A stretch of 64,000 nucleotides of DNA from Pyrinomonas methylaliphatogenes (GTDB lineage: Bacteria > Acidobacteriota > Blastocatellia > Pyrinomonadales > Pyrinomonadaceae). Of the stretch, positions 28,642 to 28,886 are shown piece by piece. The notes under the pieces were generated by a model. It did no database searches. It saw nothing but the letters and a program-made list of their open reading frames with translations, and was not told the DNA's origin. The position numbers and the translations under genes are program-made. Every line of letters begins with the position of its first letter. The first letter of the stretch is position 1. The DNA lies in contig NZ_CBXV010000001.1 of NCBI RefSeq assembly GCF_000820845.2, positions 62,001-126,000 of the forward strand. Direction: 5' to 3'.

Positions 28642-28671
28642 TTGACATGGCCGCGCGGATTATGCGATAAA
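28642..28671 (+). promoter_or_regulatory. Promoter of the methionine operon
   Basis: A perfect TTGACA at 28642-28647, an 18-bp spacer and GATAAA at 28666-28671. It lies 30 bp before a riboswitch-like element, so a short leader would carry the switch. Confidence 0.6.
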
Positions 28672-28702
28672 CGCAGCTTCGTTCAGTTTTTTGAAAGCTG
28701 AA

Positions 28703-28752
28703 TCGTGGCGATTTAGGGCGACTTGCTCCACGTAAAAAACTGCTAAAGAGCC
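28703..28752 (+). ncRNA. SAM-II-like riboswitch aptamer
   Basis: P1 arms CGTGG (28704-28708) and CCACG (28728-28732) enclose GCGATTTAGGG and CTTGCT, and are followed by the A-rich GTAAAAAACTGCTAAAGAG. The order CGxGx-UGAUUUA-...-UUGCx-xCxCG-UxAAAxxxxGCUAAAxAG is the conserved SAM-II (metA RNA) layout as I remember it, with GATTTA and GCTAAA at the expected places. SAM-II is an H-type pseudoknot that binds S-adenosylmethionine and shuts off methionine genes. The downstream genes make methionine, which fits. No fold or Rfam search was run; it has been known mainly from Alphaproteobacteria and Bacteroidetes. Confidence 0.75.
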
Positions 28753-28782
28753 GCTCGGATTCTCGAGCTAAGATTTGAAGAG

Positions 28783-28812
28783 AACCCCGCGCCTCTTTGG
28801 CGCGGGGTTTTT
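28783..28812 (+). terminator. Intrinsic terminator, likely attenuator of the methionine operon
   Basis: An 11-bp stem, AACCCCGCGCC (28783-28793) with GGCGCGGGGTT (28799-28809), a five-base loop and a TTTTT tract to 28812. It lies 30 bp after the SAM-II-like aptamer and 74 bp before the first gene. It may be riboswitch-controlled; the 3' end of the aptamer and the sequence between could form the alternative fold. Confidence 0.85.
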
Positions 28813-28886
28813 CATTATCCCACGCAGACGCTCTTCGACGTTCCCGCCTTTAAGTCGCCACGCAGACTCGGACTCAGGAGGCTGTG

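Follow-up and report, generated by a model that had tools for sequence, protein, structure and literature searches.

A SAM-II riboswitch of the Blastocatellia with a conserved antiterminator and a probable second, translational step before a methionine operon

Introduction

Most SAM-II riboswitches act on transcription, and the crystallised metX riboswitch is a rare translational case (PMC6061858). In transcriptional SAM-II leaders (RF00521; Corbino 2005, PMC1273637; Sinorhizobium meliloti metZ, PMC9373788) a pseudoknot aptamer with conserved core sequences is followed by a terminator and by methionine genes. How the aptamer communicates with the terminator has so far been largely undefined. 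Two levels of control can also be combined. Tandem SAM-II/SAM-V 'bi-mechanism' leaders (PMC9481103) have a terminator first and a translational block second, and the S. meliloti metA leader joins a SAM-II aptamer to a terminator and translational control (PMC9373788). Riboswitch-derived small RNAs arise from both metZ and metA in that organism (PMC9373788). Dual control by a single aptamer is already known in other forms, namely dual transcription/translation attenuation (PMC2258182) and the c-di-GMP switch Bc1 (PMC11218506).

Here we describe a leader within a 64 kb stretch of DNA (the window). Its elements, in order, are a promoter-like sequence (TTGACA...GATAAA), an aptamer of the SAM-II type and a strong intrinsic terminator, after which comes a gene that has a good Shine-Dalgarno sequence. 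A first-pass annotation had placed an aptamer and terminator ahead of a methionine operon, and all the elements it named are in place (Table 1).

Table 1. Features of the leader and the operon (window coordinates)
Feature	Position	Strand	Details
Putative promoter	28642..28671	+	-35 TTGACA 28642-28647; -10 GATAAA 28666-28671, TGC directly before
SAM-II aptamer, Blastocatellia subtype (CGTGGCGATTTA..CTTGCTCCACG..GCTAAAGAGC)	28702..28753	+	SAM_alpha 28.1 bits; subtype model 75.9 bits; P1/P2 covariation; GATTTA 28710-28715, CTTGC 28722-28726, GCTAAAGAG 28742-28750
P1 helix	28704..28732	+	CGTGG 28704-28708 pairs with CCACG 28728-28732
P2 pseudoknot	28717..28752	+	GGC 28717-28719/GCC 28750-28752; CTT 28722-28724/AAG 28746-28748; GC 28725-28726/GC 28742-28743
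Antiterminator 5' strand GCUAAAGAG	28742..28750	+	Identical bases to the aptamer's ligand-pocket strand
Inner antiterminator helix	28757..28786	+	GGATTCTC 28757-28764 with GAGAACC 28780-28786; overlaps terminator foot; from nascent-chain folding
Intrinsic terminator	28783..28812	+	GC-rich 11-bp stem 28783-28793/28799-28809, loop TCTTT, T-run 28808-28812
Antiterminator 3' strand CTCTTTGGC	28793..28801	+	Terminator loop and start of terminator 3' arm
Anti-aptamer CGCCTT(T)AAGTCGCCACG	28845..28862	+	17 pairs with aptamer 28704-28720; core CGCCACG 28856-28862
Initiation-region hairpin	28857..28891	+	GCCACGCAG 28857-28865 and CTC 28867-28869 with GAG 28878-28880, CTGTG 28882-28886, TGGC 28888-28891; encloses Shine-Dalgarno AGGAGG 28876-28881 and start codon 28887-28889
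First operon gene, 'metB'	28887..30101	+	ATG at 28887; Cys/Met-metabolism PLP enzyme, cystathionine gamma-synthase/sulfhydrylase-like; PF01053
Aspartokinase-homoserine dehydrogenase fusion	30102..31865	+	Second operon gene
Cystathionine beta-lyase (metC-like)	31862..33037	+	Third operon gene; TIGR01329 above cut-off

Results

At the gathering (curated) cut-offs no Rfam family matched anywhere in the 64 kb. SAM_alpha (RF00521), the search that the first-pass annotation had proposed, was the best family in a relaxed scan (28695-28766, E 2e-4), at a score below its cut-off of 36. The SAM-II long loop family (RF01726) was weaker (21.7 bits, cut-off 44), and no second aptamer of the SAM-V class, as found in tandem SAM-II/SAM-V leaders, was detected up to E 10 in 28500-29000. 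Weak matches to Thr_leader, rnk and Leu_leader in the relaxed scan were discarded because they follow the terminator hairpin.

The low Rfam score is explained by a local subtype, whose loop contains CUUGCUCCAC. We built a covariance model from 33 members of this subtype, excluding both the window and its congener. This model gave a single match in the window, at the aptamer (E 2e-15). It also recovered, at about 47 bits, the two other SAM-II copies in the genome, which pass the Rfam cut-off (50.5 and 49.1 bits) and which both precede metH-like genes (gene names read from the sequences). In the 33-member alignment 90% of the P1 and P2 cells are paired and 27 cells are changed on both sides, compared with 10 in shuffles, none of 500 of which reached 27. 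The signal is lost when the partner is slid by one to three columns. Additionally, the leader folds far more stably than its shuffles (z -5.8) and the aptamer lies before methionine genes. SAM-II identity is therefore well supported, and the conserved elements that had been recognized by eye (P1, GATTTA, CTTGC and GCTAAAGAG) hold up. A variant with altered ligand specificity might also score below the Rfam cut-off, and the aptamer does carry GGCGAUUU in place of GGUGAUUU and a shorter loop. However, the GAUUU, UUGC and GCUAAA core is invariant in all 33 diverse members and the genes downstream make methionine. We consider a change of ligand very unlikely, and SAM is the presumed ligand.

The annotation had called the promoter strong. 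TTGACA is present, and TTGACA followed by a TGYGCGATAA-like sequence recurs 5' of several ortholog leaders, which speaks for the putative promoter at this site, although the -10 GATAAA is imperfect and a simple promoter scan did not list it. Transcription would start at about 28678. The metB product reached no NCBIfam equivalog cut-off. Directly 3' of the operon (33254-34375) lies a gene for a DGQHR/DndB-like protein, of a DNA phosphorothioation-associated family.

Among named organisms, those whose sequences come closest to the metB protein are an uncultured Pyrinomonas and other Acidobacteria; the host is Pyrinomonas-like, in agreement with the acidobacterial host that had been proposed. A widening of the known host range had been proposed as well. 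SAM_alpha matches occur in 135 of 162 genomes of the Blastocatellia, in none of 14 control genomes and in 52 of 396 genomes in a sample of the phylum, so the RNA is ordinary in the class. In the open-access literature, to which our search was confined (subscription journals lay outside it), we found no description of SAM-II in Acidobacteriota. The subtype itself occupies about 80 places in 57 of the 162 class genomes, before metB-like genes, metH, threonine synthase and others, the last two named by reading the sequences.

Some other leaders were noted during this survey. Ten have two SAM-II aptamers in tandem, in most cases 100-230 bases apart. They lie mainly 5' of threonine synthase-like genes; a peroxiredoxin-like gene and a short-chain dehydrogenase-like one are also among the genes that follow them. 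An acidobacterium of another class has tandem SAM-II-like aptamers before a gene that reads as S-adenosylmethionine synthetase. Three leaders without SAM-II (two from Planctomycetota and one from an acidobacterium) have short Met-rich open reading frames, such as MSNFSMLMMMDMPLPGQ, just 5' of a metB homologue, and in one of the planctomycete or acidobacterial leaders (L017) the frame is followed by a hairpin with a T-run; ribosome-mediated methionine attenuation is possible there.

The terminator has a predicted folding energy of -23.9 kcal/mol (z -6.5 against shuffles). The strand that forms P2 and the ligand pocket, GCUAAAGAG, is fully complementary, with one G-U pair, to CUCUUUGGC in the terminator. 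This complementarity extends through the class. UUURGC, the complement of GCUAAA, is present in 39 of 76 distinct class terminators, where shuffling predicts 1.3, and the base that follows GCUAAA covaries with its terminator partner (G-C in 20/23, C-G in 8/12 and U-A in 3/4). In each of 20,000 permutations the pairings of leaders with their own terminators were stronger than swapped pairings, and the difference persists after thinning to 43 dissimilar terminators. When the window RNA was folded as a growing chain, the antiterminator dominated once the terminator loop had emerged and was displaced when the 3' arm was complete. Complementarity resembling the inner helix can be seen by eye in relatives. 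The antiterminator pairing is weak in several metH leaders and in one genus-level group of metB leaders, and it is not evident in the Sinorhizobium (S. meliloti) metZ and Shinella leaders that were compared. On these last examples we rejected antitermination through the GCUAAA strand and the terminator loop as a general rule for SAM-II.

Comparison among genomes bears out the aptamer, the terminator and the antiterminator pairing between them, and antitermination is well supported. The same comparison suggests a lineage-specific mode by which the leader would shut off mRNA synthesis, and control of transcription is very probably the first step of the switch. The hairpin might instead be the ordinary terminator of the upstream ilv operon beside an independent, translational SAM-II switch, because no other terminator lies between the end of ilvD at 28607 and this hairpin. 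Such an arrangement would not explain why the terminator loop is complementary to the pocket strand of the aptamer, nor why the two covary throughout the class beside a wide variety of genes, and we regard it as extremely unlikely. Transcription attenuation, the mode of action suggested earlier, is thus retained as one of the modes, with a terminator 3' of the aptamer and a covarying antiterminator. The accompanying view that SAM-II often acts on translation has to be reversed (PMC6061858); published work counts most SAM-II switches as transcriptional (PMC2258182, PMC6061858), so the attenuation layout is the normal one.

The antiterminator is a new detail that the annotation had missed, as is a second element, which lies beyond the terminator and points to translational control as well. 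In the full-leader fold the 5' part of the aptamer pairs with this anti-aptamer (-27 kcal/mol). An exact complement of the leader's own aptamer 7-mer is present in 11 of 16 metB-ortholog leaders, and all 16 have one within a single mismatch. Only one of 72 other SAM-II leaders has the exact complement, and that one also precedes a metB-like gene; shuffling predicts 0.1 and 0.6, respectively. The spacer between terminator and anti-aptamer varies freely among leaders, so conservation of the element is not just a matter of recent ancestry. Compensatory changes are few because the aptamer strand hardly varies. The anti-aptamer is degenerate in one genome (G112); in another (G137) a long insertion parts it from the Shine-Dalgarno sequence and start, and the flanking CGCAG and UUGCG stem strands are kept. 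A reading of the element as a reversed second aptamer was rejected on inspection by eye, as the strand has no CUUGC or GCUAAA parts.

Directly after the anti-aptamer a stem brackets the Shine-Dalgarno sequence, and its strands covary among genomes (CGCAG/CUGCG, UGCAG/CUGCA, CACAA/UUGUG and GCAAAU/AUUUGC). In 13 leaders own strands beat swapped strands in all 50,000 permutations, although the ortholog leaders share ancestry and such permutation tests, here and above, overstate independence. Conservation of the anti-aptamer and of this hairpin is thus borne out by comparison; for its composition the hairpin alone is ordinary (z -1.0). The start has the form NTGGC in 11 of 16 metB-ortholog leaders compared with 7 of 72 other SAM-II leaders. 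In those NTGGC leaders that were folded singly, the stem extends by way of the anti-aptamer core to the start codon, GCCA pairing with UGGC. The seven core bases thus have alternative partners, the aptamer strand or the start. Five leaders with the start AUGCC have no start-codon pairing.

We folded the excised initiation region of the 16 leaders in two states. The mean predicted opening of the start codon was 0.41 without the aptamer strand and 0.71 once it was added (p 0.0006); a scrambled strand had no such effect. The extension of this region to +15 was made after the fact: a shorter version, which stopped directly behind the start codon, did not include the GCCA/UGGC pairing, and its result was weaker and mixed. 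Opening did not rise in the same-genus relative (G126) or in one other genome (G086). Partition functions for the whole mRNA with the aptamer blocked showed no consistent change in Shine-Dalgarno accessibility, nor did this accessibility differ between metB-ortholog and other SAM-II leaders. Comparison and folding make a second, translational step likely, and we rate it no higher because the excised-region folding was refined after a mixed start, whole-mRNA folding showed no consistent effect and the genomes are related.

Two other roles for the anti-aptamer were considered. The terminator could do all of the regulation, with the anti-aptamer as a latch that holds the aptamer open in read-through mRNA against late SAM binding. 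The terminator and antiterminator are the best supported part of the system, the anti-aptamer pairing is strong enough for a latch and whole-mRNA folding gave no clear effect on the Shine-Dalgarno sequence, all of which agree with this. A latch alone, however, does not account for a conserved anti-aptamer that abuts and shares bases with a covarying hairpin around the Shine-Dalgarno sequence and start codon, or for the enrichment of NTGGC in the ortholog leaders, and we think that control of transcription alone is the less probable reading, at perhaps one chance in four. Alternatively, the terminated leader could be a trans-acting small RNA whose aptamer strand pairs with CGCCACG near the metB mRNA start or with other messages. 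The same 17-pair duplex could form between two molecules, and small RNAs of riboswitch origin have the S. meliloti precedent (PMC9373788). However, terminated RNA forms at high SAM, when the aptamer strand should be locked, the pairing would open rather than block the start and proximity favours pairing in cis, which together make a trans role very improbable.

Discussion

Both strands of the aptamer have conserved partners downstream, which suggests that one aptamer probably controls transcription through its 3' strand and translation through its 5' strand. A two-step SAM-II switch is the best explanation overall, with a probability of roughly 0.68. When SAM is abundant, the riboswitch would shut down expression of the methionine operon. 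Without SAM, GCUAAAGAG would be free to pair with the terminator loop and 3' arm (CUCUUUGGC) as they emerge, aided by the inner helix, and transcription would read through; with SAM bound, the P2 pseudoknot would sequester the same strand and the terminator would form. In read-through mRNA without SAM, CGCCACG would pair with the aptamer strand CGUGGCG and leave the start codon open, and with SAM bound it would pair with the start-codon region and close it. We infer both the direction of the switch and the effect of the second step on translation in the cell. The balance also leans, by a little, towards the more specific reading of two expression platforms in series on one SAM-II aptamer, the 3' strand antiterminating and the 5' strand freeing the start codon through the element beyond the terminator, conserved before metB in several Blastocatellia families.

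Because the comparative data pinpoint the antiterminator bases, the mechanism is open to tests by point mutation; the data also document SAM-II as a main methionine regulator in an acidobacterial class. If the second step is true, one small aptamer would gate both transcription and translation, with one sensor in place of the two in SAM-II/SAM-V leaders.

We found no earlier description of a two-strand, two-step SAM-II arrangement in the open-access literature, the part that our search covered. The leader shares the aptamer, terminator, gene context and expected OFF logic with transcriptional SAM-II riboswitches (RF00521; PMC1273637; PMC9373788). In contrast with these, it belongs to a local subtype with its own loop, it has an antiterminator between GCUAAA and the terminator loop that is not seen in S. 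meliloti metZ or Shinella, and it has an additional anti-aptamer and initiation hairpin. The order of terminator and translational block is that of the SAM-II/SAM-V leaders (PMC9481103), which use two aptamers, whereas a single aptamer was detected here. In S. meliloti metA (PMC9373788) the Shine-Dalgarno sequence is at the pseudoknot and the terminator is not predicted to be SAM-controlled. Bc1 (PMC11218506), with one aptamer and two control levels, is of another aptamer class and has an incoherent effect. In dual attenuation (PMC2258182) the ribosome-binding site is inside the terminator hairpin, whereas in this leader terminator and initiation hairpin are two distinct structures that would use opposite strands of the aptamer.
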